From assembly GCF_005233875.1 (NCBI RefSeq), contig NZ_SZPZ01000002.1, positions 1,364,001-1,428,000 on the forward strand: a stretch of DNA of 64,000 bases. Reading direction: 5' to 3'. The DNA is from Kribbella jiaozuonensis. Its GTDB lineage: Bacteria; Actinomycetota; Actinomycetes; Propionibacteriales; Kribbellaceae. The translations under genes were made by a program, and so were the position numbers. Below, in pieces: positions 3,873-19,804 of the stretch; the stretch's first letter is position 1, and every line of letters starts with the position of its first letter. A model generated the notes under the pieces. It was not told the origin of the DNA. It saw only the letters and a list, made by a program, of their open reading frames with translations, and made no database searches.

Positions 3873-6038
3873 TCAGCGCACAACCAAGGTTGCCGTCAGC
3901 TGGTGGGTCAGTGTCCCGCTGGTGGCGGTGATCTTGAGGGTGGAGGTCCCGCGGGCTGTCCCGGAGGTGGTCCGGATCTTCAGCACCGCGTTGCCAGAGG
4001 TGGTCACCGGGTTACCCGTCCACGTCGGTGTGGCGTTCGATGGCTGTCCGGACACCTTGAGCGTCACAGATCCCGTGAATCCGCCCGTGGGCGAGACGTT
4101 CACCGTGTACGTCGCAGTCTGCCCACGAGTCACCGTGCTCGAGGCCGGGCTGACTGCGATTCCGAAGTCCGGCCGGTTGACGACCAGCGTCAGGGTGACC
4201 TGATGGCTGAGTGACCCGCTGGAACCCGAGACCGTGAAGGTATAGGTGCCGGCGGGAGCTGATCCTGACGTCACCACATTGACCTGCGCGCTGCCGCTGC
4301 CGTGCAGGACGGCAGGAGTGACGGCGACCGTGCCGACGGCGGACGAAAGACCGCCGGCGGCCAGCGACACATCGCCGGCGAAGCCGTTCGCCGGGCTGAC
4401 CGCGATCGTGTACGCCGTCGACGCGCCTGCCGCAACAGTGCGGGTGAGCGGCGTCGAGGAGAGACCGAAGTCCGGCGGCGGCACGACAGTCAGCGTCGCG
4501 GTCGCGCTATGGCTGATCGCGCCGCTCGAACCTGTCACAACCAGCGCGGTCGAACCCGCGGTCCCGGGAGCGACCACGGTCAGCGTCGACGTCCCCGCAG
4601 CTGCCACCACCTGCGGATCGAAGCTCCCCGGCAGGCCACTGACCGACAGCGCGACGTCGCCGCTGAAGCCGCCACTCGCACTGACCGTCACGTTGTACGT
4701 CGCCGTTCCGCCGGGAAGCACATTGACCGTGGCAGGCGACACGACCACCCCGAAGTCCGGCGTACTACGGAGCCAGTTGTACGACGCCAGCACGTCGAGG
4801 CGACCGTAGCCGTAGTCGTTGTCGGCTCCGGCCGGCCCGAGATCCGCCGCACCGGCCTGCAGCGCGGACTGCTGCCTATCGGCGGACACACCCGGCGACG
4901 CCTGCAGCAGCAACGCGAGCGCACCGGCGACGTGCGGAGCGGCCAGCGACGTGCCCGAGACGTCGAGGTAGCCGCCGTACAGGTCAGTAGTCCGGATGTC
5001 CGTGCCTGGGGCAACCAGTTGCGGGTACGCCGACTGGGTGCAGGCCGACGGGCCGCGGCTGGAGTACGGATCGATCAGGCCGGTGTCGTCAACCGAACCG
5101 ACCGCCAATGCCTCCGGGTTGTTCGCCGGACTGGCCGAGCTACCGGCCACCGGACCGTAGTTGCCAGCAGCAAAGACCGGCAGGATCCCTGCCGCGCGGA
5201 GGTTGCGTAGGTCGGGCTGGAACTCCAGGCTGCAAGTTCCGGCGCTCATCGTCCAGGAGTTGTTCACCACGTTCGGCGCGTCCGCTGTCGCCGGGTTCCC
5301 GTCCGGGTCGAGCAGCCACTGGTACCCGAGATGGATCGCGGTCGACGACGCCTGTCCGCGATCGTTGAACATCTTGACGGCGATCCACCGCGCGTCCGGC
5401 GCGATGCCGATCGACGAGCCGCCGCCGTCACCGCCGACCATCACCCCCATCGTCTGCGTTCCGTGACCGGTCAGATCGACCGGTGCCGACGGGTGCTGAC
5501 CGTTCGGGTCGTACCAACTGTTGGTCCCACCACGCCACCGGGAAGCCAACTCGGGGTGGCTGATATCCACGCCGGTGTCCATCGATGCGACGACCATGCC
5601 CTGGCCGCGATACCCGAGATCCCACATCGCCGGTGCGTTCACCTGGGCCACGTTCGGCTCGACGGCGCTTGCAACCTCTGCAGTCGGAGCCTGGATCGTC
5701 GTACTCGGCCGCACCTCGCGCACCTCGGGCCGCCGCGCCAGTTCCGCGGCGACACTCGAGCGGACCCGGGCACCGATCGCGTTGGTGATCCACAGCGGCA
5801 CCACAGACGTCACGAGGCCCTGCTTCCGCCGTACGGCGAGCAGATCCCGGGCACCGCGCTGTGTGGCATCGGCGTGGTCCCGCAACGCCCTCTCGAGCCG
5901 GCCGGGTGCGGCGGCCGCAGGCGTCACCTGCGACTTCAGCACGACGATGACGTCGACGAAGGGATCGGCCGGTGGCGCGGCGACTGCCGATCCGGGCACC
6001 ACGAGCGCAAGAACCACGCTGAACGCAAAGGACCTCAT
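3873..6038 (-). CDS. Secreted subtilisin-like serine protease with three Ig-like repeats
   Basis: 721 residues from the ATG at 6038, which overlaps the stop of the CopCD gene (ATGA) and follows GGGAGGTCGACG. Signal peptide MRSFAFSVVLALVVPGSAVA, an inhibitor_I9-like propeptide, then the S8 catalytic domain with Asp in SMDTGVD, His in LTGHGTQTMGV, oxyanion Asn in FAAGN and Ser in SGTSLAAPHVAGAL. The C-terminal ~260 residues are three tandem Ig-like domains, each opening with PDFG-(x)3-SP and ending in TLxVV. These resemble bacterial pre-peptidase/adhesion-type beta domains and probably hold substrate or cell wall. Translational coupling to CopCD puts an extracellular protease in a copper operon; maturation of the secreted oxidases nearby is a possible role, by inference. 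Confidence 0.88.
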   Translation of the reverse strand: MRSFAFSVVLALVVPGSAVAAPPADPFVDVIVVLKSQVTPAAAAPGRLERALRDHADATQRGARDLLAVRRKQGLVTSVVPLWITNAIGARVRSSVAAELARRPEVREVRPSTTIQAPTAEVASAVEPNVAQVNAPAMWDLGYRGQGMVVASMDTGVDISHPELASRWRGGTNSWYDPNGQHPSAPVDLTGHGTQTMGVMVGGDGGGSSIGIAPDARWIAVKMFNDRGQASSTAIHLGYQWLLDPDGNPATADAPNVVNNSWTMSAGTCSLEFQPDLRNLRAAGILPVFAAGNYGPVAGSSASPANNPEALAVGSVDDTGLIDPYSSRGPSACTQSAYPQLVAPGTDIRTTDLYGGYLDVSGTSLAAPHVAGALALLLQASPGVSADRQQSALQAGAADLGPAGADNDYGYGRLDVLASYNWLRSTPDFGVVVSPATVNVLPGGTATYNVTVSASGGFSGDVALSVSGLPGSFDPQVVAAAGTSTLTVVAPGTAGSTALVVTGSSGAISHSATATLTVVPPPDFGLSSTPLTRTVAAGASTAYTIAVSPANGFAGDVSLAAGGLSSAVGTVAVTPAVLHGSGSAQVNVVTSGSAPAGTYTFTVSGSSGSLSHQVTLTLVVNRPDFGIAVSPASSTVTRGQTATYTVNVSPTGGFTGSVTLKVSGQPSNATPTWTGNPVTTSGNAVLKIRTTSGTARGTSTLKITATSGTLTHQLTATLVVR

Positions 6039-7630
6039 CGTCGACCTCCCGGACCGCGAATCAACCACCACGCACCCACCCCGACACCCAGCTCCAACAG
6101 CAACAGCGCCGCCCCATCGACGTACGGCGCGAGCCTCAGCCCCGGCGCGAGTGAGACAGCAGGCGATGAGACATTCCAATCAAGCGGTACGGCGTACTCG
6201 CGCCCGCCGCGATGCAGTACGGCGACCATCCGCACCGCGCCCGCCGACGCGGCCCGGTACGTCGCGAAGTACCGGGTGTCGGTCAGACGCTGCAGCGGGA
6301 CGGCCTGATCGCCGATCCGCAGGTCCACGCCGCCGAGTGGCGCCGGCGCCGGTCGCCGGCTGCTGTCGGCGATCACTGTCAACCAGTTCACCCCGGGCTG
6401 GTTGGGTGTCGCCGACACAGTGACCACCAGGTCCGCCACGAACCCGCTGCGTGCCAGGGCGGGAGGGACGTCGGCCCTGGCACCCGCCGGAGGAGACTGT
6501 CCGACAAGCGCAGCAACCGCGACCAGCAACAGTGCACCGACCGTGGCTTCGGCCGCGATGGTGTGACGAGGTACGGACCGCCGGCGCAGCCGCCATGCGT
6601 TGAGCAGGCCCAGGAGGCCGATCACGCCAAGCAAGGCAGTCTTGAGCAGCAGCAGGCGTCCATAAGTGGAGGCAATGAGCCAGCGCGGGGTGGCGACCTG
6701 GAGACCCGCGCTGTAGAGTCCGGACACGAGGACAAGTAGCACGCTGCCGGCAGCCACGACCGAGAACGGCCGTCGCAGACTACGTGCCAGTTCGGTCCGC
6801 GGGCCGTGCCAGAACACCAACAACAGCGCCGGCACCGCACCGAGCCACAGCAGACCGGCGAACGCATGGACCGCATCGGCCAGGAGCGCGGCGAAGTGTC
6901 CCGATGACAGCGCGGCAGCATGACTTCCGGTTGCCTCCAGCCACATCAATCCGCCGATCGGCACCAGCAGTACGACAGACGCCACGCGCTCGGTCAGCAC
7001 AAGCCCCACCAGCGCGCACAAGACCACCAGACACACCAGTCGAAGGCCGGTGCGATGTATGCCGATGGCAACGACCGCGGAGCACGCCGCGGCGATCAGC
7101 AATCGCTGCCGTGCAGCCAAGGCGATCGGGTCGGACGGCACGCGTAGAACGAAGACGACGAGCGCGAGGGGACCGACAATGCCCGCCAGTGCGAGCAACC
7201 AGACCCACCGCACCAGCACGCCACCCGAAGTACTCGGTCGATGGACAGACAAGGCCCCGGAGTGCCCGACCGAGAAGGTGACCGTCCCGCTCGTCGTGTG
7301 GCTGTCCCGAGCGGCGACTGCTTCCCACAACAATCCGTACGTCCCGTCAGCCAGCCGCGGAAGCTGTACTGCGATCACCCGCGGATCGCCCGACCCGGCC
7401 ACCACGCCGGCCCCCAGAACCATGACACCGTGCTCGTCGACCAGTCGCGCCGTACTGCGCGAGGCGGTGATGTCACCGCTGAACCACAGCCGGGCGAGGC
7501 CGGGGGACTCCGCGAGGACTGCGCCGTCGGCCGGGTCCGCCCGGACCAGCTCGGTGTGGGCAACCGCGACCGACGGCAGCGCGCACAGCAGGAGCACGCC
7601 GGCCAGCAGGAGCAGACAGCGGTGCCGCAC
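6035..7630 (-). CDS. CopC-CopD fusion, copper binding/import protein (YcnJ-like)
   Basis: 531 residues from GTG 7630, preceded by GGGAGGGGGAGCCC. The signal peptide ends ...LPSVAVA, so the mature protein would begin with His (HTELVRADPADGAVL). With Asp and His in ARDSHTTSG this gives the His-brace copper site of CopC. The CopC domain is followed by eight or so membrane helices of the CopD family, including GSHAAAL and DAVHAFAGLLWLGAVPAL, and a C-terminal YtkA/FixH-like beta domain (about residues 390-500) before a last helix. This CopC-CopD-extra-domain layout matches YcnJ-type copper uptake proteins. It heads the minus-strand operon with the subtilase, and its upstream region carries the ATGAC-N6-GTCAT dyads described separately. 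Confidence 0.9.
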   Translation of the reverse strand: MRHRCLLLLAGVLLLCALPSVAVAHTELVRADPADGAVLAESPGLARLWFSGDITASRSTARLVDEHGVMVLGAGVVAGSGDPRVIAVQLPRLADGTYGLLWEAVAARDSHTTSGTVTFSVGHSGALSVHRPSTSGGVLVRWVWLLALAGIVGPLALVVFVLRVPSDPIALAARQRLLIAAACSAVVAIGIHRTGLRLVCLVVLCALVGLVLTERVASVVLLVPIGGLMWLEATGSHAAALSSGHFAALLADAVHAFAGLLWLGAVPALLLVFWHGPRTELARSLRRPFSVVAAGSVLLVLVSGLYSAGLQVATPRWLIASTYGRLLLLKTALLGVIGLLGLLNAWRLRRRSVPRHTIAAEATVGALLLVAVAALVGQSPPAGARADVPPALARSGFVADLVVTVSATPNQPGVNWLTVIADSSRRPAPAPLGGVDLRIGDQAVPLQRLTDTRYFATYRAASAGAVRMVAVLHRGGREYAVPLDWNVSSPAVSLAPGLRLAPYVDGAALLLLELGVGVGAWWLIRGPGGRR

Positions 7631-7709
7631 GGGCTCCCCCTCCCGTCGACGCCGGGACACCGCGCCGACAGCTCGACGATAGGAACCGCCGCGGCGTACT
7701 GCTCGCTTC

Positions 7710-7747
7710 ATGACACGACCGTCATCAGATGACCCGACCGTCATCTG
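7710..7747. promoter_or_regulatory. Two tandem dyads ATGAC-N6-GTCAT (putative response-regulator operator)
   Basis: Dyad one is ATGAC-ACGACC-GTCAT at 7710-7725. Dyad two is the longer CAGATGAC-CCGACC-GTCATCTG at 7726-7747, and the two abut directly. Both half-site pairs are 11 bases apart start to start, one helical turn, as expected for an OmpR/PhoB-type regulator. They lie between the divergent CopCD gene (start 7630) and the large secreted protein gene (start 7901). An identical-spacing copy lies upstream of the OmpR-type regulator gene at 19759. Function is inferred from position and recurrence. Confidence 0.72.
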
Positions 7748-7759
7748 TCACACCACGGC

Positions 7760-7799
7760 GGATGACCGCCGGATGACGTGGGGATGACAGAGCCGTCAT
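7760..7799. promoter_or_regulatory. Three 11-bp-phased GGATGAC direct repeats ending in a third ATGAC-N6-GTCAT dyad
   Basis: GGATGAC occurs at 7760, 7771 and 7782, exactly 11 bases apart. The last copy is also the left half of ATGAC-AGAGCC-GTCAT (7784-7799). Head-to-tail half-sites at one-turn spacing are the classical binding pattern of OmpR/PhoB-family regulators. The block is on the side of the plus-strand secreted-protein/oxidase operon, whose ATG is at 7901, so it probably serves that promoter, while 7710-7747 is nearer CopCD. Confidence 0.7.
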
Positions 7800-7900
7800 G
7801 CACCGCGCCGGGACACGTGAGTCGCCGGATGATCACTCACAGATGTCCAGGCACCAGGCGGCGGCCTGTTCAGGTCGTGCCGCCGGGGAGGGTGGGACCG

Positions 7901-10900
7901 ATGTCTGCTGCAACGAGTTCGTTCCGGCTCGTCCGCCGTACCCGAGCGGCGGTGGCCCGGGTCGCCGTACTCGGACTGATCGCGGCGAGCCTGGCCGGGG
8001 TGGCGATGACCAGATCCGCGCCCGAGGCGCAGGCGGCTACAGCCTGTCCGGCGGCAGGCTGCTCGGTCACCGTCGACGCGCGTGACTTCCCGACCGGGAA
8101 CCCGCTGGCCGACTTCACGTACATCGTCAACCAGGACAACACCAAGCTGCCGAACGATCCGAAGGCGCTCAGCACCGAGAGCAACAGCCCGATCGTCCGC
8201 GAAGGCGACCAGACCCGGAAGACCGTGACCCTGCCGGCCGGGCGGTACCTGATCTCGGTCCGCTCGCTCGATCACAAGATGTGGGGCAAGTACATCAACC
8301 TGCCCGCCGACGCCGCCGCGGACGGTTCTCTGACCGCGCGCGTCGACCTGACCGTGCAAAGCGCCGAGCATCCGCTGCCACTCGGGAAGATCCGCGTGTT
8401 CGTGTTCGAGGACAACGCCTGGGCGAACGGTGCGCCCGACACCGAGGAGGCCGGCTTGTCCGGTTTCCAGGTCGGGCTCGAGGAACAGACGCACAGTGCC
8501 GTGACGGTCGACTACAACAACCACCCGCTGTGCGGCGGTCTGTGCCTGACCAATGGAGACGGCTTCAACCAGATCGACAACCTCGGCCCGGCGACGTACC
8601 TCATCGACGTCCACCCGCCGGACCGGCCCTGCAACAGCGACCCCAACAGCCGCTGGTACCAGACGACCACGATCGACGGCGGACTGCAGCTGCTGGCGCC
8701 GACCGAAGAAGGTGCCGACGGCACCGGTGCGCCCGGCGAGCAGTTGTGGGAGCCGCCGACGGCCCGGACCGCGTACTGGTTCGGCTTCGTCTGCGCCCCG
8801 CAGCCGTTCGCGGCCGCCGGCACCGGCGAGGTCACCGGTACGGCGCGCAACTGGCAGGGCTGGCCGCCGTTCGACCAGTTGACACTGGGCGAGCCGGTCG
8901 AGAACCCGTTCGTCGCATTGAGCGACAGCAGCACCGACCGGACCGTGTACATCGGCCAGGGCGATGCCAGCGGCAACTTCGACATCCAGAACGTCCCGGC
9001 GGGCAGCTACAACCTGTCGATCTGGGACGAGCAACTCAGCTACATCATGCGAATCCTGCCGGTTGATGTCGCCGCAGGCGGCACGGTCACGGTCGAGGAC
9101 CCTGATCCGGTCCATCCCGACGAGCATGGTGTGGGGGTGTCGCGCTGGTTCGGCTGGCTGGACGGTCACGTCTACAAGGACCTGAACGGCAACCAGCTCC
9201 GCGATCCCGGTGAGCCCGGTATCGGGAACACCGACATGGACCAGCGCTGGCGCGACGGCTCGATCAAGGAAGCGACCACCACCGACCCGACCGGGTACTA
9301 CCAGTACCCGACCGCCGAGGGCGGCCCGCTCGGTCGCTGGATCGTCAACGAGCAAGGCTTCGCGCGCTTCGGCGTCAGCGGTGCGTCCCAGCACGACGAG
9401 TTCGACCCGGGCGTCGTGACGCCGATCCCGACCGATCAGGGCGGCGCGCTGCTCACCAACCAGTTGCTGACCGAAGGCCACCGGGCCACGGTCGACTGGG
9501 GCAAGACCGACTACCCGGCCGGTACGCCGGGACAGATCGTCGGCATCACGTACTTCTCGACCACCCGCAACGAGTTCGACGCGCGCATGCAGGCGCACGA
9601 GGACTACGAGCCGGCCATCCCGGACGTGACGGTGTACCTGGAGACTCTCGGTCCCGACGGGCAGCCGAACACGGCCGACGACGTGATCGTGAACAAGTAC
9701 GTGACCGATCACTGGGTCCAGCCCAGTGGAACCCCGCCCGCGGACCCGGCGACGTACGCTCCGGGCTGTGCCGTCCGCGACGCGACCGGCGCGGACATCA
9801 GCTCGCAGCTCAACCCGGGCATCGGGCCGAACTGTCTCGAGGTTCCGATCACCGGTCAGCAGACCAAGGACGGCGCCTTCGACGGTGGCTACGCGTTCGC
9901 CGACTACTGCCCGAGCGGGTACGACCTGACGACAGACAACGGCACCTGCAGCGGCAACACGCAGCCGGTCGCACTCACCGCCGGCACCTACATCACCCAC
10001 GTCGTGATGCCGACCGACAGCACCGACAGCCGCCTGTGCAACCCGGCAGATGCTTCCCAGCGGGTCAGCCACCCGAAGGGGACCACGATCCCGGGTGACG
10101 GCACCGGCTGTCTCTACCGCCCGGTCCGCGAGGAGGACGTGAACGTTGACCTAGGCAACAAGTTCACGCCGGCCATCCCGCCGCCGCCGTGCACCGGTGA
10201 CGACCACCTGATCGACAAGTCGTCGCTGACCCCGCGGAGCAACTACTTCAACGTCGCGGGCGCCCACGCGCCGCTGTGCGACAAGCGGCTGGTGGTTCTG
10301 CAGAACAGCCAGAACGCCAACGCGGACTTCAACCTGATGACGAACTTCCGTACCGACCCGAACGGCGAGGACCCGGCCGACACGCGCACCGGTGACGTCG
10401 CCGAGCCAGGCCGCCTCGTCGGCCAGGTGTTCAACGACATCTACTTCGAGCGCGACCCGAACTCGCCCTGGTACGGCGAACCGCGCCCGATCGGCAACGT
10501 TCCGGTCGGCATCTACGCCCGCGTCGACACGGCCGGGCCTGGCGGCAACGTGAACCTGCCGTACGACGCGAACAACTGGCGCCTGCTGACGACCGTGACG
10601 ACCAGCCCGGACGGTTCGTTCGAGGCCCTGGTCCCGTCGACCGAGACGCTGAACTGTCCCATCCCGCAAGGCCCGTGCCCCGGCATGTACCTGGTGAAGG
10701 TCGATGACCCCGGCTCCAAGACGGCGCCGAACCCCACCTACAACCCGAATTTGCTGACAGCAACGACTCCGGCCGAAGCGTGGCCGGGCCTGACCACTCA
10801 GCTCGACCTGCCGCTGGACCCGATCTCGGGGACCGGCTGCGAGGATCCCGCCGTACCGGCGCGGCCCGAACTGCTGCAGGTCGACACCCCGGTCCGGACC

Positions 10901-13075
10901 GCCGGCCAGGTGATGACGATCCAGGCAGACTTCATCGGCGCACAGGGAACCGCCACCGGCGCGGCCGGCGTACGGGCAACCCTGACCGACGACCGCACCG
11001 GAACGAGCGTCACGCTCACCCGGGCCAACGGCGGGATCGTGAGCTGGACGCCCGGCACGTCCGGGACCACCGGCGTACCCGACCGGGTGCAGATCCGGAT
11101 CCCTGCCTTCGGTACGACGTTCCGCCCCGGACCGAAGCAGCTGACGCTGATCACGTCCGACGCCAGTGGGGGAGTGCCGACCGTGAACGGCATCACCGTT
11201 CAGGTCACCGGATCGTCCGGCGGCATCAACTACAACCCGAACGTCGTGAACGTCGCCGCTCCGACGCTGACCGGCCACCAGTTGCAGGCCGCCATCGACG
11301 CCGCTCCGGCACGCAGCCTGCTGGTGCTGAAGCCCGGTACGTACAACGAGAACGTGGTGGTCTGGAAGCCGCTGAAGATCCAGGGTGTCGGCCCGGGCGG
11401 CATCATCGGCGCCCATGAGGCCCAGGCCCGTGACCCGGAGGACCCGCGCTTCCACGTCCTCGGCTCGGTCATCGACGGCCGCTACTTCCAGCAGAACGCA
11501 ACCGCGTACGACGCCACGATCGCCGCTCACGGCCCGTACGTCGACTCCGCACATCCGGTACTGCGTGGCGCCGACGTCACCGTGGTCGCGCAGACGGCGG
11601 CGGCGTATGACCTGACCGGTACGACGACCGCGGTCAACCAGACGCAGTTCAACCGCTCCCGGGTCGACGGTGTCGCACTGATGACCGGCGGCTCCGGTGA
11701 GGGCGCGGGCGGCATCCAGCTCCAGGCCTCGATCAACAACGAGCAACTCACCAACAACGTGCTCGAGAACAACGCCGGCGTCGTCGCCGGCGGGATCGGC
11801 ATCGGTCAGCCCTACGACCACGCCAGCCACAACTACACCGTCAAGGTCGCGAACAACCGGCTGCTCGGCAACGGCGGCCTCACGCAGGCGGGCGGCCTCG
11901 GGATCTTCTACGGCTCGAACGACTACGAGGTCACCGGCAACATCGCCTGCTCGAACTTCAGCGTCAACTACGGCGCCGGCATCTCCCACATCGGGCTCAG
12001 CCCGGGCGGGAACATCCACGACAACCAGATCTACTACAACGACTCGGTCGACTCCGGCGCGGGCGTCGCGATCGAGTCCGAGCTGCCGGTCGGCGGCGGG
12101 ACACTCGGTGACGGCACTGGTGCGGTCTCGCTGGACAAGAACCTGATCCAGAGCAACTACTCCGGTGACGACGGCGGCGGCCTGTTCGTGCTCGACGCGC
12201 TGAACGCGGTGGTGAACATCCGCGACAACCAGATCGTCGACAACGGCTCGGCCGACATCGGCGGCGCGATGATGCTCGACGACTCGTCCAATGTGCGGAT
12301 CGTCAACAACACCGTGGCCAACAACGTGTCCACCGCGTCGTCGGAGAACTCGGCGATCGGCGTACCGCACTCGGCCGGACTCGCTGCCGAGGGCAACGAT
12401 CCGCTGTGGCAGAGCGATCCGCGGTACGTCGCCCAGTACCCGAACGCGGCGACCCGGCCGGACTTCGCCCGTCCGGTGGCGCAGTTCAACGACATCTTCT
12501 GGAACAACACGGCGTTCACGCTGGACAGCTTCGGCCCGGGTGCGGCGCTGGTGAACCAGGGCGTGATCGACTTCGAGGTGCACGGTACGACGAACAACGC
12601 CGACACGTTCATCCCGCGGTACTCCGATCTGAGCAACGGGCAGATCCTCGGTCCGAACGGCGTCCAGCACGCGGTACCGGCGGGCCAGGGCAACATCATC
12701 GGCTCGAATCCCACGTTCGTCACGCCGTTCACGCTGGAGCTGACGGTGTCCGGGTCGCGGCTGGATCCGCAGACCGCGGCCGTGACGATCACCGGCGCCG
12801 ATCCGCCGGTGGGGCTGACCGGGAACTATCACCTGCAGACGACGAGTCCGGTCGTGGACCGTGGGGTCCGCTGTTCGAACACGCCGGCGCCGATCCCGAA
12901 CCTTGCCGCATGCTCCGCGGCCGCGGTCCCGGCCCCGACCGGAAGCCCGGCGGTGAACGGCGGTCTCGGCGATTACGACAGCCAGTTCCGCCCACAGCTG
13001 CGGACGCTCCGGGTCCTCACGCCGTGGGACCTGGGTGCGGACGAGCTGCCCGGCATCCCGGTTCCGTTGCCATGA
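7901..13075 (+). CDS. Very large secreted protein with SdrD/Cna-B-like domains and a parallel beta-helix
   Basis: 1724 residues from ATG 7901 (GGGGAGGG upstream). Starts further upstream would place operator DNA inside the gene. Long signal peptide (hydrophobic VAVLGLIAASLAGVAM, cleavage near AQAATA). The first ~1000 residues are several SdrD-B/Cna-B-like beta domains: GHVYKDLNGNQLRDPGEPGI near residue 420 (calcium-binding-loop style D-x-N-x-N), an IVGITYFSTTRNEFDARM domain near 542 and a GQVFNDIYFERDP domain near 836. An Ig-like domain lies near 1010-1110. From about 1120 to 1550 comes a right-handed parallel beta-helix (QLQAAIDAAPARSLLVLKPG, then Asn-rich PbH1 coils such as NNVLENNAGVVAGGI). 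The stop overlaps an ATG and the multicopper oxidase gene follows at once, so it is the first gene of the oxidase operon. A surface scaffold or glycan-binding role is inference. Confidence 0.85.
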   Translation: MSAATSSFRLVRRTRAAVARVAVLGLIAASLAGVAMTRSAPEAQAATACPAAGCSVTVDARDFPTGNPLADFTYIVNQDNTKLPNDPKALSTESNSPIVREGDQTRKTVTLPAGRYLISVRSLDHKMWGKYINLPADAAADGSLTARVDLTVQSAEHPLPLGKIRVFVFEDNAWANGAPDTEEAGLSGFQVGLEEQTHSAVTVDYNNHPLCGGLCLTNGDGFNQIDNLGPATYLIDVHPPDRPCNSDPNSRWYQTTTIDGGLQLLAPTEEGADGTGAPGEQLWEPPTARTAYWFGFVCAPQPFAAAGTGEVTGTARNWQGWPPFDQLTLGEPVENPFVALSDSSTDRTVYIGQGDASGNFDIQNVPAGSYNLSIWDEQLSYIMRILPVDVAAGGTVTVEDPDPVHPDEHGVGVSRWFGWLDGHVYKDLNGNQLRDPGEPGIGNTDMDQRWRDGSIKEATTTDPTGYYQYPTAEGGPLGRWIVNEQGFARFGVSGASQHDEFDPGVVTPIPTDQGGALLTNQLLTEGHRATVDWGKTDYPAGTPGQIVGITYFSTTRNEFDARMQAHEDYEPAIPDVTVYLETLGPDGQPNTADDVIVNKYVTDHWVQPSGTPPADPATYAPGCAVRDATGADISSQLNPGIGPNCLEVPITGQQTKDGAFDGGYAFADYCPSGYDLTTDNGTCSGNTQPVALTAGTYITHVVMPTDSTDSRLCNPADASQRVSHPKGTTIPGDGTGCLYRPVREEDVNVDLGNKFTPAIPPPPCTGDDHLIDKSSLTPRSNYFNVAGAHAPLCDKRLVVLQNSQNANADFNLMTNFRTDPNGEDPADTRTGDVAEPGRLVGQVFNDIYFERDPNSPWYGEPRPIGNVPVGIYARVDTAGPGGNVNLPYDANNWRLLTTVTTSPDGSFEALVPSTETLNCPIPQGPCPGMYLVKVDDPGSKTAPNPTYNPNLLTATTPAEAWPGLTTQLDLPLDPISGTGCEDPAVPARPELLQVDTPVRTAGQVMTIQADFIGAQGTATGAAGVRATLTDDRTGTSVTLTRANGGIVSWTPGTSGTTGVPDRVQIRIPAFGTTFRPGPKQLTLITSDASGGVPTVNGITVQVTGSSGGINYNPNVVNVAAPTLTGHQLQAAIDAAPARSLLVLKPGTYNENVVVWKPLKIQGVGPGGIIGAHEAQARDPEDPRFHVLGSVIDGRYFQQNATAYDATIAAHGPYVDSAHPVLRGADVTVVAQTAAAYDLTGTTTAVNQTQFNRSRVDGVALMTGGSGEGAGGIQLQASINNEQLTNNVLENNAGVVAGGIGIGQPYDHASHNYTVKVANNRLLGNGGLTQAGGLGIFYGSNDYEVTGNIACSNFSVNYGAGISHIGLSPGGNIHDNQIYYNDSVDSGAGVAIESELPVGGGTLGDGTGAVSLDKNLIQSNYSGDDGGGLFVLDALNAVVNIRDNQIVDNGSADIGGAMMLDDSSNVRIVNNTVANNVSTASSENSAIGVPHSAGLAAEGNDPLWQSDPRYVAQYPNAATRPDFARPVAQFNDIFWNNTAFTLDSFGPGAALVNQGVIDFEVHGTTNNADTFIPRYSDLSNGQILGPNGVQHAVPAGQGNIIGSNPTFVTPFTLELTVSGSRLDPQTAAVTITGADPPVGLTGNYHLQTTSPVVDRGVRCSNTPAPIPNLAACSAAAVPAPTGSPAVNGGLGDYDSQFRPQLRTLRVLTPWDLGADELPGIPVPLP

Positions 13076-13104
13076 ACATCTACCAGTCCAGTCAGGGGGA
13101 CGCG

Positions 13105-14376
13105 ATGAGCTCGCAGCCGACCGGCGTCGGACGCCGGGACTTCCTGAAGGCCACCGGCCTGGGTGCCCTGGGCACCCTCGCCCTCGGCGGTCTCGGCGCG
13201 GGCCTCGTCCGCGGGACCGGCGCCGCCGCGGCGGCCACGACCACGCTCGCCCTGGCCGCGACCGACGGATACATCACCGTGCCGGGGCGGGAGGACGACC
13301 CGTTGTACATCTTCGGGTTCATCCCGGTCAGCACGACCGCGACGGTCGACCAACTGGTCACGCAGTACAAGGGCCATGCCCGGACGAGTGCGCCGACGCT
13401 GGACGTGAAGCAGGGCGACGACGTCCGGATCACGTTGACCAACCTCGGTCTCGTCCAGCGTCCCGACCTGACCGATTCGCACACCGTCCACTGGCACGGT
13501 TTCGACATCCCGTCGCCGCTCAACGACGGCGTACCCGAAGTGTCGGTGGCAGTGCCGATCGGGAAGCAGCTGACGTACTTCTACCGCCCGCACCGTGAGG
13601 GCACGTACATGTACCACTGCCACTTCGAGGACGTGGAGCACGTCCAGATGGGGATGACCGGGATCGTCTTCGTCCGCCCCACCCAGGACGGTACGACGAT
13701 CGCCGGCTTCTCGAGGTTCGCCTACAACGACGGGGACGGCTCGACCGGCTACCACCGGCACTTCGCGATCCTGCTGAACGAGTACTGGCGCGAGTTCCAC
13801 GACGGCGACCGGGACATCCAGGAGTCGATCGCGACCGACTACGACCCGGAGTGGTTCGTGCTGAACGGGCGTTGCTACCCGCAGACGACGCTGCCGAACG
13901 ACGACCCGTCGCTGGCGGCCCCGCTGCGGATCGCCACACCGAACCCGAACTACGACGACGCACCCGACTACAGCCTGCCCAACTCTGCACTCGTCCAGGT
14001 GAACCCCGGCGAACGGGTTCTGCTGCGGCTGGCGAACCTGGGCTACCAGCAGCACGCGATGCAACTGCCCGGGATCCCGATGCATGTGATCGGGCAGGAT
14101 GCGTCGCTGCTGCGCACCACGTCGTACTGGACGAACACGCTGTACATCGGTCCCGGCGAGGCCCGGGACGTGCTGTTCGACGCACCGGCGTACTCGGCAC
14201 TCAAGCCGTCGGGGAGCGACGGCCGGGGCAGCTACAACGTCTACTACTTCAAGAACCGGGACTGGCGGCGGTTGTCCAGCCTCGGCGCACCCGGCCCGAG
14301 CGGAATGATGACCGAGGTACGGGTGTACCAGAACCCGCTGCCCGCGCAGTCCGTCGTGAGCCAGACCTATGTCTGA
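13105..14376 (+). CDS. Tat-exported multicopper oxidase, first part: type 1 copper plus half of trinuclear site
   Basis: 423 residues from ATG 13105 (AGGGGGACGCG before it). Twin-arginine signal GRRDFLKATGLGALGTLALGG. Two cupredoxin domains. Domain 1 carries H126-T-V-H129-W-H131-G, the HxxHxHG motif, and H171-C172-H173 followed by H179 and M182/M184. Together these supply a full type 1 copper site (H126, C172, H179, Met) and four trinuclear-cluster histidines (H129, H131, H171, H173). Domain 2 (about 285-410) lacks copper motifs. The second HPxHxHG/HxH set of a laccase is missing here and appears in the next gene. The motif YHCH-x5-H-x-x-M recalls, from memory, OmpB/MofA-like oxidases. The gene is 29 bases after the beta-helix protein gene. 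Confidence 0.88.
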   Translation: MSSQPTGVGRRDFLKATGLGALGTLALGGLGAGLVRGTGAAAAATTTLALAATDGYITVPGREDDPLYIFGFIPVSTTATVDQLVTQYKGHARTSAPTLDVKQGDDVRITLTNLGLVQRPDLTDSHTVHWHGFDIPSPLNDGVPEVSVAVPIGKQLTYFYRPHREGTYMYHCHFEDVEHVQMGMTGIVFVRPTQDGTTIAGFSRFAYNDGDGSTGYHRHFAILLNEYWREFHDGDRDIQESIATDYDPEWFVLNGRCYPQTTLPNDDPSLAAPLRIATPNPNYDDAPDYSLPNSALVQVNPGERVLLRLANLGYQQHAMQLPGIPMHVIGQDASLLRTTSYWTNTLYIGPGEARDVLFDAPAYSALKPSGSDGRGSYNVYYFKNRDWRRLSSLGAPGPSGMMTEVRVYQNPLPAQSVVSQTYV

Positions 14377-14389
14377 GCAGGAGGCGACG

Positions 14390-16375
14390 ATGACAAGCAA
14401 CAGCTCGCGGATCCGCCGGTCGCTGGCCGGCCTGGTGCTGGCCGCCGGTCTCCTCGTCCCGGTCGCCTCGCCCAGCGCCGACGCGCAGTCCGAGGCCGTC
14501 CCACCGGTAGGCATGATCTGTACGGCGGGCACGTTGGCCGGCTCGATCCGGACGTTCGACCTGGTGGCGTCCGCGGGCACGATCGACACCCCGGACGGCA
14601 ACAGCGTCTTCATGTGGAGCTACTCGCCGGCCGGCGGGCACTTCCAGAGTCCCGGCCCGGTGCTGTGTGCGAACCAGGGCGAGTCCGTGGTCGTGCACCT
14701 GCAGAACAATTTGCCTGAGGCAACATCTATCGTCTTCCCCGGTCAGGACGCGACGGTCGCCGCGACCGGTGGCGCACCCGGCCTGCTGACCACCGAGGCG
14801 GCCGCCGGGGGCAGCGTCACGTACTCGTTCACTGCCGGTCAGCCCGGCACCTACCTGTACGAGAGCGGGACGGACATCGCCAAGCAGATCGAGATGGGCC
14901 TCGCCGGTGCCCTGGTGGTCCGGCCGACGCTCGGCGCGGACTTCGCGTACGCCGACGCAAGTACCCGGTTCGCACCTGCCCGGGAGTACCTGCTGCTGCT
15001 CAGCGACATCGACTCCGACCTCCACCACGCGGTCGAGACCGGTGCGCCGTACGACCTGAACGCGCTGCGGAACCGGTACTTCTCCATCAACGGACGGGAG
15101 TTCCCGGACACGATCCAGGACAACGGCTCGGCCCTGCTGCCGAACCAGCCGTACGGCGCCCTGGTCCGCCTGCAACCGAATTCGCCGACCGACAACAGGC
15201 CGGCGCTGATCCGGATGATCAACGTCGGCGCGGTGAACCACCCGTTCCACCCGCACGGCAACCACACCACGGAGATCGCGCAGGACGGCCGGCTGATCGC
15301 GTCCACCGAGCACTTCGGCGAGACGATCGGCTCCGGGCAGACCGAGGACTTCCTGCTTCGCTGGGACGACACGGACAACTGGAACCCCACCACGAACCCG
15401 CTGCCGGTGGCGCAGCCGAACTACCGCAACCTGTTCTTCAAGGACGGCAACACCTGGTACAGCGGGTCGCCGTACCTCGGTTACAAGGGCACGCTGCCGG
15501 TCGGTACCACCTCGCAGAACGCCTGCGGCGAGTGGTACTTCCCGCTGCACAGCCACGCGTTGAACGAGTTCACCAACTACGACCAAGGCTTCGGCGGCAT
15601 GGGCACTCTGCTCCGCGTCGACCCGGCGGGTGGTTGCTTCGGCTCGGCCACCTCGACCTCGATCCTCGGCGGCACGCTGAAGTCCGGCTCGGTCGCCGCG
15701 CTCGGCCAGGCCGACGGCACCTACTACCAGGTCAACCCGAAGACCACCACGCGCCCGACCGCGACCACCGCCGCACAGACGTCCATCACAGTCGCCTCGG
15801 CCGCCGGATTCCCCATCACCGGTTCGTACTTCGTTCGCATCGACAACGAGGTCCTGCAGGTGACCGGCGGCCAGGGCACCACCACCTGGACGGTCTCCCG
15901 CGGCCAGCTCGGGACAGCGGCCGCCAGCCACGTCAGTGGTTCGGTGGTCACGGGACTGGCGACGGACTGGTACGGCTCGTTCGGCGGCGTTCCGGCCGGC
16001 AGCTCGAACCTCAAGGTCGTCTACCAGGGCCGCAACTGCACCGGCACGACCGGGACCGCCTGTGCGGCACTGACCACGAACCTGCCACAGCAGACCGTCA
16101 AGATCTGCAACTGGACGGTGCCCGCCGGCTGCAGTACGGCGACATCCGCCGGCTGGACCACCTTGCCGGCCCCACCGGCCCAGCCGCAGAGCGTCGGCTC
16201 CACCGACATCAGCTCGACCTGGACATTGCCCGGTCCGTCGAGCGCGTACGTCGGCACCGGCTCGTACGCCGGACAGGTCCGGGTACTCGTCCACACCCAA
16301 CGGTGGACAGCCTCCGCGCCGGTGGCGTTCTCGACCTGGGGCGACCTGATGAAGATCGTGTACGACGCGCCATGA
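14390..16375 (+). CDS. Secreted multicopper oxidase, second part: remaining trinuclear motifs, no type 1 copper
   Basis: 661 residues from ATG 14390, six bases after AGGAGG. Sec-type signal (SLAGLVLAAGLLVPVASPSADA). A cupredoxin domain without ligands (about 85-180) is followed by one with H284-P-F-H287-P-H289-G-N-H292 and L386-H387-S388-H389. The first is the HPxHxHG motif and the second corresponds to HCHxxxH with Cys replaced by Ser, so no type 1 copper can form. H287, H289, H387 and H389 would complete an eight-histidine trinuclear cluster with the preceding protein. The last ~250 residues add a beta region; YFVRIDNEVLQVTGGQGTT there resembles short repeats found in phage tail and surface proteins. 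The gene starts 13 bases after the previous stop. Confidence 0.85.
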   Translation: MTSNSSRIRRSLAGLVLAAGLLVPVASPSADAQSEAVPPVGMICTAGTLAGSIRTFDLVASAGTIDTPDGNSVFMWSYSPAGGHFQSPGPVLCANQGESVVVHLQNNLPEATSIVFPGQDATVAATGGAPGLLTTEAAAGGSVTYSFTAGQPGTYLYESGTDIAKQIEMGLAGALVVRPTLGADFAYADASTRFAPAREYLLLLSDIDSDLHHAVETGAPYDLNALRNRYFSINGREFPDTIQDNGSALLPNQPYGALVRLQPNSPTDNRPALIRMINVGAVNHPFHPHGNHTTEIAQDGRLIASTEHFGETIGSGQTEDFLLRWDDTDNWNPTTNPLPVAQPNYRNLFFKDGNTWYSGSPYLGYKGTLPVGTTSQNACGEWYFPLHSHALNEFTNYDQGFGGMGTLLRVDPAGGCFGSATSTSILGGTLKSGSVAALGQADGTYYQVNPKTTTRPTATTAAQTSITVASAAGFPITGSYFVRIDNEVLQVTGGQGTTTWTVSRGQLGTAAASHVSGSVVTGLATDWYGSFGGVPAGSSNLKVVYQGRNCTGTTGTACAALTTNLPQQTVKICNWTVPAGCSTATSAGWTTLPAPPAQPQSVGSTDISSTWTLPGPSSAYVGTGSYAGQVRVLVHTQRWTASAPVAFSTWGDLMKIVYDAP

Positions 16376-16407
16376 CCGAGTCGATCGAGTCGCAGAGGAG
16401 ACCTGTG

Positions 16408-17370
16408 ATGCGTACATCCGTTCACCGCGGGACGCGGGTCCTGCTGGTGCTCGCGCTGGCCGTGTTCGGCCTGACCTGTGTGGTCAGCTCCGCCACCGCG
16501 GCCACGGTATCGATCGAGCTGTGCGCCGTACCGGGGACCGCACCGCTGCCGGGCGGCGGCCTGGTGCCGATCTGGGGGTTCGGCAAGCCGACGACGCCCG
16601 GCGATTGCGCCACGGCGAGCGCGGGTCTGCCGGGTCCGCAGCTCGAGGCGGTGCAGGGGGACCTGGTCACGATCACCGTACGGAACGCCTTGCCTGCCGG
16701 GCATGTGGTGTCGTTCGAGATTCCCGGAGTGGCGTTCGACCCCGGGCCGACCGACGCCGCACCGGGTGCGGCCGTGTCCCGGTCGTTCACGGCACAGGCC
16801 GGCACCTACCTGTACCAGAGTGGCGGCGACGCCGGGCGCCAGGAGGCGATGGGACTGTCCGGAGCCTTGCTGGTGCGCTCACTCCCCCCGAACCAGGCCT
16901 ACGCGTCCGCGACCACGGCGTACGACATCGAATCGGTGCTGGTGCTGACAGCGGTGGACCCGGCGTTCAACGCCGCGCCGGAGACGTACGACGTGCACAG
17001 CTACAAGGCGACGTACTGGCTGATCAACGGGAAGTCGTACCCGGACGTGCCGGCGATTACTACGGCCGCAGGGCAGCGGGTGCTGCTGCGGTACCTCAAT
17101 GCCGGCTACGACAACACCTCGCTGACGTTGCTCGGCACGCACCAGCAGGTCGTCGCTCGTGATGCCCGGCTGCTGACCAATCCGTTCAGCGCGAGCACGG
17201 AGACGATTCCGGCCGGCGGCACCGAGGACACGATCGTCGTCGTACCCGCGGGCGCACCGCCGAGCACGCACGGCTTCCCGCTGTTCAACCGTCAGCTCCA
17301 CCTGACCAGTGGGCCGCAGACCGGCACGTCGCCGATCGGCAACGGCATGCTGGTCTTCATCCAGCCATGA
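16408..17370 (+). CDS. Secreted two-domain cupredoxin-fold protein without copper ligands
   Basis: 320 residues from ATG 16408, seven bases after GAGGAG. An in-frame ATG at 16372 overlapping the previous stop is less likely. Signal peptide RVLLVLALAVFGLTCVVSSATA. Two cupredoxin-like domains align by eye with the ligand-free domain of the preceding oxidase: GPQLEAVQGDLVTITVRNAL mirrors GPVLCANQGESVVVHLQNNL, and AGTYLYQSGGDAGRQEAMGL mirrors PGTYLYESGTDIAKQIEMGL. No HxH or Cys-His pairs are present. It looks like the third piece of a six-cupredoxin-domain assembly, giving structure rather than chemistry. The stop overlaps the next gene's ATG. Confidence 0.78.
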   Translation: MRTSVHRGTRVLLVLALAVFGLTCVVSSATAATVSIELCAVPGTAPLPGGGLVPIWGFGKPTTPGDCATASAGLPGPQLEAVQGDLVTITVRNALPAGHVVSFEIPGVAFDPGPTDAAPGAAVSRSFTAQAGTYLYQSGGDAGRQEAMGLSGALLVRSLPPNQAYASATTAYDIESVLVLTAVDPAFNAAPETYDVHSYKATYWLINGKSYPDVPAITTAAGQRVLLRYLNAGYDNTSLTLLGTHQQVVARDARLLTNPFSASTETIPAGGTEDTIVVVPAGAPPSTHGFPLFNRQLHLTSGPQTGTSPIGNGMLVFIQP

Positions 17371-17837
17371 AGCTCAGGATTCTGGGCATCCTCACCGGGA
17401 TTGCTCTGGTCGCCGCCGCATTGACGGCCTGGGTTCTGATTCGTCAGGACCCGACCGCGGCGGCGCCGGCGCCGGTCGCGCAGATCGCCTGGGGGCGTAC
17501 GACGGTCGACGCCGACGGCCTCGCGGCGCGCAGCGGCGTACGCCTCACCCAGGTCGCAGTCACCGGGGGAGGAGGCCTGCTCGACCTGCGGTTCCAGGTG
17601 CTCGATCCCAACCGCGCGAACAGCCTGCACGACGCCTCGACGCCGCCGGCCGTGATCGACGAGACCAGTGGACTCGTCGTCCGCGACCTGCTGATGAGCC
17701 ACGCGCACACCGGCAAGTTCACCACCGGCGAGACGTACTACCTGGTCTTCGAGAATCCCGGCAACTGGATCCGGCGCGGGTCGAACGTGACCGTGCTTCT
17801 GGGACAGGCACAGGTCGAGCACGTCGTCGTTCGCTGA
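17367..17837 (+). CDS. Small membrane-anchored protein at the end of the oxidase operon
   Basis: 156 residues, ATGA overlap with the cupredoxin gene. An N-terminal helix (ILGILTGIALVAAALTAWVLI) looks like an uncleaved anchor or signal. The rest is an all-beta extracytoplasmic domain with a conserved-looking core LLDLRFQVLDPNRA, a LLMSHAHTGK segment whose two histidines could bind metal, and TGETYYLVFENPGNWIRRGS. No family is recognised. Tight coupling to the oxidase genes suggests an accessory role, such as holding the complex at the membrane or delivering copper. It converges with the sensor kinase gene, with three bases between the stops. Confidence 0.7.
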   Translation: MKLRILGILTGIALVAAALTAWVLIRQDPTAAAPAPVAQIAWGRTTVDADGLAARSGVRLTQVAVTGGGGLLDLRFQVLDPNRANSLHDASTPPAVIDETSGLVVRDLLMSHAHTGKFTTGETYYLVFENPGNWIRRGSNVTVLLGQAQVEHVVVR

Positions 17838-17840
17838 CGA

Positions 17841-18935
17841 TCAGCCGCTCCGCGGAATCGTCAGCACGAACCGAGCGCCGCCCTCGTCGCTGTGGGCCGC
17901 GACCAGCGTGCCGCCATGCGCCTCGGCAACGGCACGCGCCATCGACAGCCCGAGACCGCTGCCCATCGGTCCGTGCTCCGGCCGCCGGTGCCAGAACCGG
18001 TCGAACACGAACGGCAGGTCGTCGGGCTCGATCCCCGGCCCCGAGTCGTCGACGATGATCGCGATCCGGCCGGGCGACGCCGTACAGCCGATCCTTATCG
18101 TGTCGCCAGACGAGGTGAAGTGCACCGCGTTCTCGACCAGGGCGTCGAGCGCGAGCTCCATCCAGTCGTGGTCGATCCGCGCGCGGCCGGCCGGCCCGCA
18201 ACCGATAAGCCAGACCCGATCGGTGTTCGCGGTCCAGTTGCGGCCGATCTCGGCGACCAGCGCGGCAACGTCGGTCGGCCGCCGGTCCAGCGCCTCACCC
18301 GCATCCAGCCGGGCCAGCGCGAGCAACCGGTCGGACAACGCGGACATCCGATCGAGCTGCCGCAACGCAACCTCGACGTGCGGGTGTACGGCGTGCAGCG
18401 CCGTCGCGTCACCTGCCAACTCGAGATGGCCACGCGCGATCGTGATCGGTGTGCGGATCGCGTGTGAGGTGTCCCGGAAGAACCCGCGCTCCCGCTCCAG
18501 GCTGGCGCGGCGCTCATCGGCCATCCGTTCGACCTGCTGCTGCGCGGCGGCCCGGCGGCGGGCGTGCCACATCATCGCGACGAACAGCGCGGGCATCAAC
18601 GGCACCTCGGCGAGCTCCGCGTTGTCGATGACGCCGTCGACGACGCGGCCGAGCAGGACCGCACCGGTCGCACCGGTTACGGCCAGGGCCACGAGCAGGG
18701 TCGGCAGCAGCGGCCAGACCCGGAAGCCGTAGACGATCGTGAGGCTCAGGAACAGGAAGTGGTACGGAATCGTCTCCTCGCCCGGCAACCGGATCATCAG
18801 CCCGAGCATCGCCAGCATGAATGCGGCGAGCAGGCTGTCGATGACCAGGCCCCGGTTCAGGCCCAGGCGGCGGACAGCCGGCTCGGTCCGGACGCCGGTC
18901 GCGCTCTCACGCGGTTTGTAGCTGATAACCGACAT
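17841..18935 (-). CDS. Membrane sensor histidine kinase of the copper/oxidase island
   Basis: 364 residues. Three to four membrane helices occupy residues 28-125 with almost no extracytoplasmic sensor loop. A short coiled linker follows, then HisKA with phospho-acceptor H158 in FRDTSHAIRTPI, and a HATPase_c domain with N box LVENAVHF, G1 DDSGPGIEPDDL and G2 GSGLGLSMARAV. The start at 18935 overlaps the response-regulator gene by 29 bases, so the pair is co-transcribed. The near absence of a sensor loop suggests signal detection in or at the membrane. A link to copper or oxidase function is inferred from position and from the operator shared by the regulator gene and the island. Confidence 0.87.
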   Translation of the reverse strand: MSVISYKPRESATGVRTEPAVRRLGLNRGLVIDSLLAAFMLAMLGLMIRLPGEETIPYHFLFLSLTIVYGFRVWPLLPTLLVALAVTGATGAVLLGRVVDGVIDNAELAEVPLMPALFVAMMWHARRRAAAQQQVERMADERRASLERERGFFRDTSHAIRTPITIARGHLELAGDATALHAVHPHVEVALRQLDRMSALSDRLLALARLDAGEALDRRPTDVAALVAEIGRNWTANTDRVWLIGCGPAGRARIDHDWMELALDALVENAVHFTSSGDTIRIGCTASPGRIAIIVDDSGPGIEPDDLPFVFDRFWHRRPEHGPMGSGLGLSMARAVAEAHGGTLVAAHSDEGGARFVLTIPRSG

Positions 18936-19581
18936 TGCGCACCGTCCGGATGACGTCGTTGCGGAGCTTGGACCGGAGTCGGCCGATACACACGTCGACG
19001 AGGTTGGTGCTCGGATCGAAGTCGTAACCCCACACCTCGGACAGCAGCTCCTGCCGGGAACAGACGGTGTCCGGATTGCGCATCAGGTGCTGCAGCAACA
19101 GGAACTCGCGCTGCGGCAGCTCCGCGGTCCGTTCACCCACCTGGAGCCGGCGCGTCCGGGTGTCGAGGACGATCTCGCCGACCCGCAGTACCTCGGGCAG
19201 CCAGGCTGCGCCCGCCGGCGCGGGCGCCAGCAGCCGCGAACGCACCCGGGCCAGCAGCTCCCGGACCACGAACGGTTTCGCCAGGAAGTCGACCGCGCCC
19301 TGCTCCAGGCAGGCGACCCGCACCTGCCGGTCCTCGGTCGCGGACAGCACCAGGATCCGGGTCGACCGGTCGTGCGTCAGCAGTGCGGTCAGCACCGCCT
19401 GGCCGTCCAGACCGGGCATCAACAGGTCCAGGATCACCAGATCGGGCTTGGTGGTCAGGGCGAGCCGGAGTCCCTCGGTCCCGTCCGTGGCCGTGATCAC
19501 GTGGAAGCCTTCCGCCTCCAGCGCGCTGCGGACGAAGCCGAGCAGGTCGGGTTCGTCGTCGACAACGAGAATCCTGGTCAT
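18907..19581 (-). CDS. OmpR-family response regulator
   Basis: 224 residues from ATG 19581, with AAGGGGG upstream. The receiver domain opens ILVVDDEPDLLG, with phosphorylated D52 in VILDLLMPG, the Thr/Ser switch in LVLSAT and Lys in FLAKPF. The C-terminal winged helix has the OmpR signature LPQREFLLLQHLMRNPDTVCSRQELL and ends DVCIGRLRSKL...VRNVGYQL. It forms an operon with the kinase. Its upstream region carries an ATGAC-N6-GTCAT dyad identical in layout to those between CopCD and the oxidase operon, so I infer autoregulation and control of the whole island. Confidence 0.9.
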   Translation of the reverse strand: MTRILVVDDEPDLLGFVRSALEAEGFHVITATDGTEGLRLALTTKPDLVILDLLMPGLDGQAVLTALLTHDRSTRILVLSATEDRQVRVACLEQGAVDFLAKPFVVRELLARVRSRLLAPAPAGAAWLPEVLRVGEIVLDTRTRRLQVGERTAELPQREFLLLQHLMRNPDTVCSRQELLSEVWGYDFDPSTNLVDVCIGRLRSKLRNDVIRTVRNVGYQLQTA

Positions 19582-19758
19582 CGAACCCCCTTCAGGCCTT
19601 GACGGCCTACCCCCGGGGCACGGGTGTCCGGCTGCTGCACCCCACAGCCTCCGGACCGGGACCCCACCGGCGCGCACCCCAACGACATTGTCGGACGACC
19701 GGGTGTCCGGCGGAAGAGGTGAGCGCTCTCCGCCGAACCGTCCCAGAGCGCTGATCAG

Positions 19759-19774
19759 ATGACAGTCCTGTCAT
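19759..19774. promoter_or_regulatory. ATGAC-N6-GTCAT dyad upstream of the response-regulator gene
   Basis: ATGAC-AGTCCT-GTCAT lies 178 bases upstream of the regulator ATG and 45 bases past the ackA stop. The left flank CAG matches the longer dyad at 7726 (CAGATGAC). Ten fixed bases in a fixed frame would be expected about 0.06 times by chance in 64 kb; four copies are seen, all next to genes of this island. Confidence 0.65.
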
Positions 19775-19804
19775 GTTCGCGGCGTCCACAGCCTCAGGCT
19801 CCGT

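Follow-up and report, generated by a model that had tools for sequence, protein, structure and literature searches.

The window, a stretch of 64,000 nucleotides from Kribbella jiaozuonensis, carries a gene island for a CopC-CopD fusion protein (CopCD), a giant secreted protein, three multicopper-oxidase-type proteins and a two-component system, with an array of short repeats between its divergent genes. The features are as follows.

6035..7630, minus strand: CopC-CopD fusion protein (Pfam CopC, CopD), a predicted target
7676..7681, minus strand: -10-like hexamer TATCGT of the putative CopCD promoter, at offset 37-42 after the centre of dyad A
7710..7725, no strand: dyad A, ATGAC-ACGACC-GTCAT, an exact match, kept in one relative (L065) and with one base changed in another (L066)
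7729..7744, no strand: dyad B, ATGAC-CCGACC-GTCAT, an exact match, 19 bp from dyad A
7762..7766, plus strand: direct half-site ATGAC, 22 bp upstream of dyad C
7773..7777, plus strand: direct half-site ATGAC, 11 bp upstream of dyad C and first member of the triple 7773-7799
7784..7799, no strand: dyad C, ATGAC-AGAGCC-GTCAT, an exact match
7828..7833, plus strand: -10-like hexamer GATGAT of a putative promoter, at offset 37-42 after the centre of dyad C
7901..13075, plus strand: secreted SdrD-B/beta-helix protein of 1724 aa (Pfam; weak NosD-family match)
13072..14376, plus strand: multicopper oxidase 1, 434 aa, with a twin-arginine-type signal (Pfam Cu-oxidase_3/_2; overlapping ORF)
14390..16375, plus strand: multicopper-oxidase-like protein 2
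16405..17370, plus strand: multicopper-oxidase-like protein 3, whose locus counterparts match multicopper-oxidase protein 2 at about 34% (tblastn)
17367..17837, plus strand: small membrane-anchored protein with no Pfam match and no named family, conserved in relatives
17841..18935, minus strand: sensor histidine kinase of 364 aa (Pfam HisKA, HATPase_c)
18907..19581, minus strand: OmpR-family response regulator (Pfam Response_reg, Trans_reg_C), the proposed array binder by co-occurrence with the motif
19759..19774, no strand: dyad D, ATGAC-AGTCCT-GTCAT, an exact match upstream of the regulator gene

The start of the CopCD gene is most likely the GTG at 7630, which has GGGAGGGGG before it, rather than the upstream ATG at 7744, and with this start the whole array is intergenic (7631-7900). 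An earlier note on this DNA had placed the array between CopCD and the oxidase operon; the intergenic position was upheld, but the first gene of the rightward operon is the SdrD-like gene, and the oxidase genes come after it. The SdrD-B/beta-helix gene is predicted to be the first gene of a target operon. Multicopper oxidase 1 matched the NCBIfam model copper_res_A below its cut-off. By eye, oxidase-like proteins 2 and 3 (14390-17370) matched parts of oxidase domains only, and protein 2 presented HSH at the position expected for the type-1 copper cysteine (LHSHALNEF); these two proteins may not be catalytic oxidases. A gene for a subtilase-family (S8) protease (3873-6038 in the window, 18945-20447 in the Nocardioides locus L096) adjoins CopCD in the type-1 loci described below and in the Nocardioides metagenome-assembled genome (MAG), and possibly belongs to the island. 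No publication joining Kribbella, multicopper oxidase and two-component systems was found, and a search for Kribbella and multicopper oxidase alone gave none relevant by title or abstract.

Exactly four exact copies of ATGAC-N6-GTCAT were found in the window, with starts at 7710, 7729, 7784 and 19759. Dinucleotide shuffles of the window gave an expectation of 0.04, and none of 100 shuffles contained four. The earlier description of three dyads within 90 bases and a fourth before the response-regulator gene was therefore correct at every position. Eight ATGAC/GTCAT half-sites lie within 7710-7799. The halves of each dyad are 11 bp apart and the two left dyads (7710, 7729) are 19 bp apart; in the right part, ATGAC at 7762, 7773 and 7784 is followed by GTCAT at 7795, every step being 11 bp, as had been claimed. 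Three GGATGAC repeats had also been described, and these are present at 7760, 7771 and 7782, but conservation does not extend to the GG in front (L065 reads GAAATGAC), so the unit is ATGAC. Across the three species with a type-1 locus, 38 of 40 half-site columns were identical; in the spacers this held for 19 of 50 columns and in the flanks for 71 of 137. A search of the window for ATGAC-N6-GTCAT with two mismatches found 21 sites for 17.6 expected; this lack of an excess indicates that the motif is sharp, with no further weak copies. Dyads A and C are best read as the predicted promoter-proximal operators of the CopCD gene and of the SdrD-like/oxidase operon, respectively. Dyad D suggests autoregulation of the regulator gene. 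This is the least secure part of the reading, because dyad D was conserved in L065 and absent from L066 and lacks the fixed distance to a -10-like hexamer described below.

The genome search that the earlier note had proposed returned nine exact dyads in the 8.66 Mb of the genome (two for the reversed-pattern control), rather than many copies away from promoters. Four of the nine are in the island, three are inside coding genes and two are copies of one sequence, ATGACAGCGCTGTCAT; outside coding sequence, and with this duplicate set aside, every exact dyad is in the island. The ATGACAGCGCTGTCAT site precedes a glycoside hydrolase gene, in a segment present on two contigs, and we take it to resemble a LacI-type operator. 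Contigs C1 and C5 of this assembly (G000; loci L087 and L083) share an apparently identical segment of several kilobases, which reflects either duplication or assembly redundancy. A relaxed search of the same genome for the triple unit defined below, with one mismatch allowed, gave 14 forward and 15 reverse matches against 10 and 10 for the control, and with counts so near the control no trans targets can be claimed in this genome.

Homologues of the regulator (E <= 1e-70) were present at 19 orthologous or paralogous loci in 13 of 38 Kribbella genomes. An exact dyad lay within about 15 kb at 13 of these loci; four of the others had a one-mismatch dyad, one had a degenerate dyad and one had none. 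The background in the 38 genomes was 143 exact dyads, or about one per 2.3 Mb, and 1.15 Mb of loci around unrelated kinases contained no exact dyad. Type 1 loci (the window, L065 and L066) had the same island. Type 2 loci (L067-L076) had the regulator and kinase, one dyad in nine of ten cases (the operator was absent from the paralogous locus L067) and then a secreted beta-helix protein and an operon of polysaccharide type, whose last gene encodes a giant beta-helix/PKD protein (L068: 1405 aa); tblastn detected no CopCD or oxidase genes near these loci. Type 3 loci (L077-L082) had a divergent oxidase island with an SdrD-like protein about 29-30% identical, and in L080-L082 the SdrD-like gene is preceded by a variant dyad, ATGAG-N6-GTCAT or its complement; in L080 and L081 the variant was also present between CopCD and the regulator. 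All nine loci for multicopper oxidase 1 in the genus Kribbella adjoin the regulator. An order-wide search of 391 genomes from 40 genera, at E <= 1e-65, returned homologues of the regulator from Kribbella and from no other genus. A kinase search added three Nocardioides MAGs, which had the regulator (59-62% identical), kinase, dyad and SdrD-like gene, in that order; the dyad between the kinase and SdrD-like genes was exact in L096 and L099 and had one mismatch in L097. These comparisons lend strong support to the proposed link, through the motif, between the two-component system and the island: the half-sites were conserved in three species and the spacers were not, and the motif recurred beside related regulators at other loci and in another genus and was nearly absent elsewhere.

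In L068 (6948-18878) and other type-2 loci a conserved operon was observed, encoding a beta-helix protein, a small HATPase protein, a LuxR-type regulator, a DegT aminotransferase, a Polysacc_synt_2 protein, an RtcB-family protein and the giant beta-helix/PKD protein. It is apparently a cell-surface or polysaccharide locus.

When the promoters were aligned on the dyad centre, most showed one more half-site (ATGAC, CTGAC, GTGAC or a close variant) at a distance of 11 bp on the upstream side. The usual unit is thus larger than a dyad, namely a direct-direct-inverted triple, (A/C/G)TGAC-N6-ATGAC-N6-GTCAT, with 11-bp phasing; the type-1 CopCD promoter is the exception, with a second dyad 19 bp away instead. 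A -10-like hexamer, NANNNT, was present 36-38 bases past the dyad centre in all 25 promoters (two of them added), a rule derived from the same, mutually related promoters that were counted; among 2,000 shuffles the highest count, whatever the offset, was 10 of 25. With a reduced promoter set the count was 10 of 10, against a shuffle maximum of 5. Because the rule had been found on the counted promoters, three type-3 SdrD promoters outside the loci used were fetched (L168-L170). All three had an 11-bp direct pair of ATGAC/GTGAC half-sites and the hexamer at the same offset, and two had the inverted half: L168 has GTGAC-N6-ATGAC-N6-GTCAT with the hexamer CACGCT, L170 has ATGAC-N6-ATGAC-N6-TTCAT with CAGTGT, and in L169, where the direct pair and CAGTGT are intact, a degenerate TTTAG stands in place of the inverted half. 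The window and type-3 promoters have poor -35 elements; type 2 has a TTGCCC-like -35 at offset 14, with a spacer of 17-18 bases.

The pattern TGAC-N6-RTGAC-N6-GTCAT occurred 14 times in the 38 Kribbella genomes (once for the control). The triple with a central ATGAC accounted for 11 of these, all beside the regulator family; in the genome of the window it occurs once. Three triples with a central GTGAC were found in G007, G008 and G014. They were rejected as sites of this regulator, being present also in a genome without it, and probably belong to another OmpR-type regulator. This conserved, 11-bp-phased triple, TGAC-N6-GTGAC-N6-GTCAT, lies at about 1501-1526 in L208, L209 and L213, upstream of an Mce/Yrb-like ABC operon; two of the three genomes have a PhoX-like gene on its other side (names by eye).

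Taken together, the array is very probably a composite operator, an activator site of the OmpR-family regulator at 18907-19581, for the CopCD and SdrD-like/oxidase promoters, and the best reading of the motif distribution is a narrow regulon. The phosphorylated regulator would bind, as monomers or dimers, to 5-bp ATGAC half-sites that recur at every helical turn (11 bp), with the phased molecules on a single face of the DNA. The leftward CopCD promoter would be served by four half-sites (two dyads), and the rightward SdrD-like/multicopper-oxidase operon by four others (direct, direct, direct, inverted). The inverted half of the promoter-proximal dyad would sit immediately upstream of the -35, where an activator site is expected, and this position, together with a -10-like hexamer 36-38 bases from the centre, suggests that the bound regulator activates two divergent promoters with poor -35 elements. 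Transcription would start about 7 bases past the hexamer, near 7840 on the plus strand and 7669 on the minus strand. Coincidence or a repeat artefact could be imagined for a short motif in DNA of high G+C content. It is excluded at the sequence level by the four dyads found for 0.04 expected, by the phylogenetic footprint and by the held-out promoters, and its probability is negligible.

OmpR-family proteins can both activate and repress, and tandem half-sites over 90 bp between two promoters could exclude RNA polymerase. The regulator, phosphorylated or not, might then repress both promoters until a signal releases them. This is unlikely, since the sites are upstream of the putative -35 and not over the -10 or the start, and since the near-constant distance to the -10 and the poor -35 (window and type 3) form the layout of an activator. 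It is more improbable still that a DNA-binding protein other than the neighbouring response regulator owns the motif. Several regulator families bind such dyads, and two of the nine genomic sites, the ATGACAGCGCTGTCAT copies, are LacI-like; however, the motif accompanied the regulator gene in two genera and in three paralogous types of locus, whose other neighbouring genes differ, and no other regulator was seen to be common to all locus types. If the array is an activator site of this kind, its code of half-site, phasing and distance to the -10, which was checked on the held-out promoters, predicts targets for an uncharacterised family of actinomycete two-component systems and connects this family with an island that encodes three multicopper-oxidase-type proteins as well as a giant secreted one.

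The kinase would respond to copper or to a copper-dependent envelope state, a reading of the signal that we favour slightly. CopCD and the three oxidase-type proteins in the island speak for it, and the kinase itself, with no large extracytoplasmic domain, speaks against it; the type-2 loci, in which CopCD and oxidase genes were not detected, weaken it further. A different role, which we consider possible but less probable, is that of a switch for very large secreted beta-helix/SdrD surface proteins, with CopCD and the oxidases maturing or cross-linking them. Every locus type examined had, as a predicted operator target, a gene for a secreted beta-helix or SdrD-like protein, and type 2 adds an aminotransferase, polysaccharide-biosynthesis genes and the 1405-aa beta-helix/PKD protein without CopCD or oxidases. 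Against this, CopCD too appears to be a target in types 1 and 3, and the regulator tree, whose deep forks inside the family are only moderately supported, places the SdrD-like/copper-gene contexts (Nocardioides, type 3 and type 1) around type 2. Type 2 is thus plausibly derived, a later re-use of the system.

The regulator has a receiver and a winged-helix domain (Pfam Response_reg, 97.3 bits; Trans_reg_C, 85.3 bits), and the acceptor Asp is conserved: D8, D9, D52 and K102 were invariant in 19 homologues. As expected for the OmpR/PhoB family, half-sites 11 bp apart were found upstream of the predicted target promoters. Scores against the CusR/CopR/SilR models were 161.3 bits for TIGR01387 (cut-off 279.2) and 132.7 bits for NF007346 (cut-off 420). 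In the tree the regulator family formed its own clade (100/100), outside the CusR/CopR/HprR clade, and the CusR clade joined other regulators from the same genome (98/92). The regulator as a CusR orthologue was ruled out by the sub-cut-off scores and the separate clade. The kinase scored 100.9 bits against the CusS-type model TIGR01386 (cut-off 292.55); by hydropathy it has a hydrophobic N-terminus and only short loops, and the large periplasmic metal-binding domain of that type was not seen. Among the proteins compared, a TN..DV....RLR.K pattern in the recognition region was common to the regulator family, CusR, SilR, HprR and two other copper-type regulators, and this may explain the common half-site.

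The direct-repeat operators of the OmpR family, such as those of PhoP and PhoB, are head-to-tail, with an 11-bp step, upstream of the -35. The Kribbella array likewise has one half-site per helical turn upstream of the putative -35, but its promoter-proximal half is inverted. A further comparable system is CopR of Corynebacterium glutamicum, also an actinobacterial OmpR-family regulator, which controls a multicopper oxidase by way of 11-bp-spaced repeats between divergent genes. Its operator, TGAAGATTTnnTGAAGATTT, is a direct repeat (PMC3353115), and it differs from the Kribbella array in having a direct repeat only, another half-site, no inverted half and a single binding site.

The nearest operator is that of CusR/SilR in E. 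coli and enterobacterial plasmids. The sequence bound by CusR of E. coli is AAAATGACAAnnTTGTCATTTT, with a palindromic consensus (PMC11195947), and the core ATGAC-N6-GTCAT is identical to that of Kribbella. The E. coli cus and plasmid sil/silE operators lie at 3513-3528 in L222 and at 13915-13930 and 16164-16179 in L223. The cus region has GTGAC-AGAAAA-ATGAC-AAAATT-GTCAT, with a third half-site 11 bp from the palindrome, the sil region has GTGAC-AGGATA-ATGAC-AATGTT-GTCAT and the silE region has ATGAC-AGGCTA-ATGAC-ATCTTT-GTCAT. This third half-site (ATGAC or GTGAC), which is outside the palindromic consensus quoted in PMC11195947 and is directly testable in the E. coli cus/sil operators, indicates that the Kribbella grammar is the copper/silver grammar. 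Both systems have very few targets and involve divergent copper operons. They differ in that the Kribbella regulator is 36% identical to CusR and in a different clade, and its targets are the CopCD and SdrD-like/oxidase genes, with no efflux pump. By eye, the third half-site of cusC, silC and silE is on the promoter side, whereas that of Kribbella is on the far side, and the distance from the centre to their -10-like hexamer is about 42 bases, compared with 36-38 in Kribbella. We propose tentatively, and with more doubt than confidence, that a regulator clade that is no close kin of CusR independently reached the CusR operator code (half-site, triple and recognition-helix residues), and that in Kribbella three paralogous two-component systems came to share this code, with one of the three driving genes for giant secreted beta-helix proteins and for polysaccharides in place of copper genes. 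Judged from its sequence, the array would work like a CusR box and belong to a different regulator clade.
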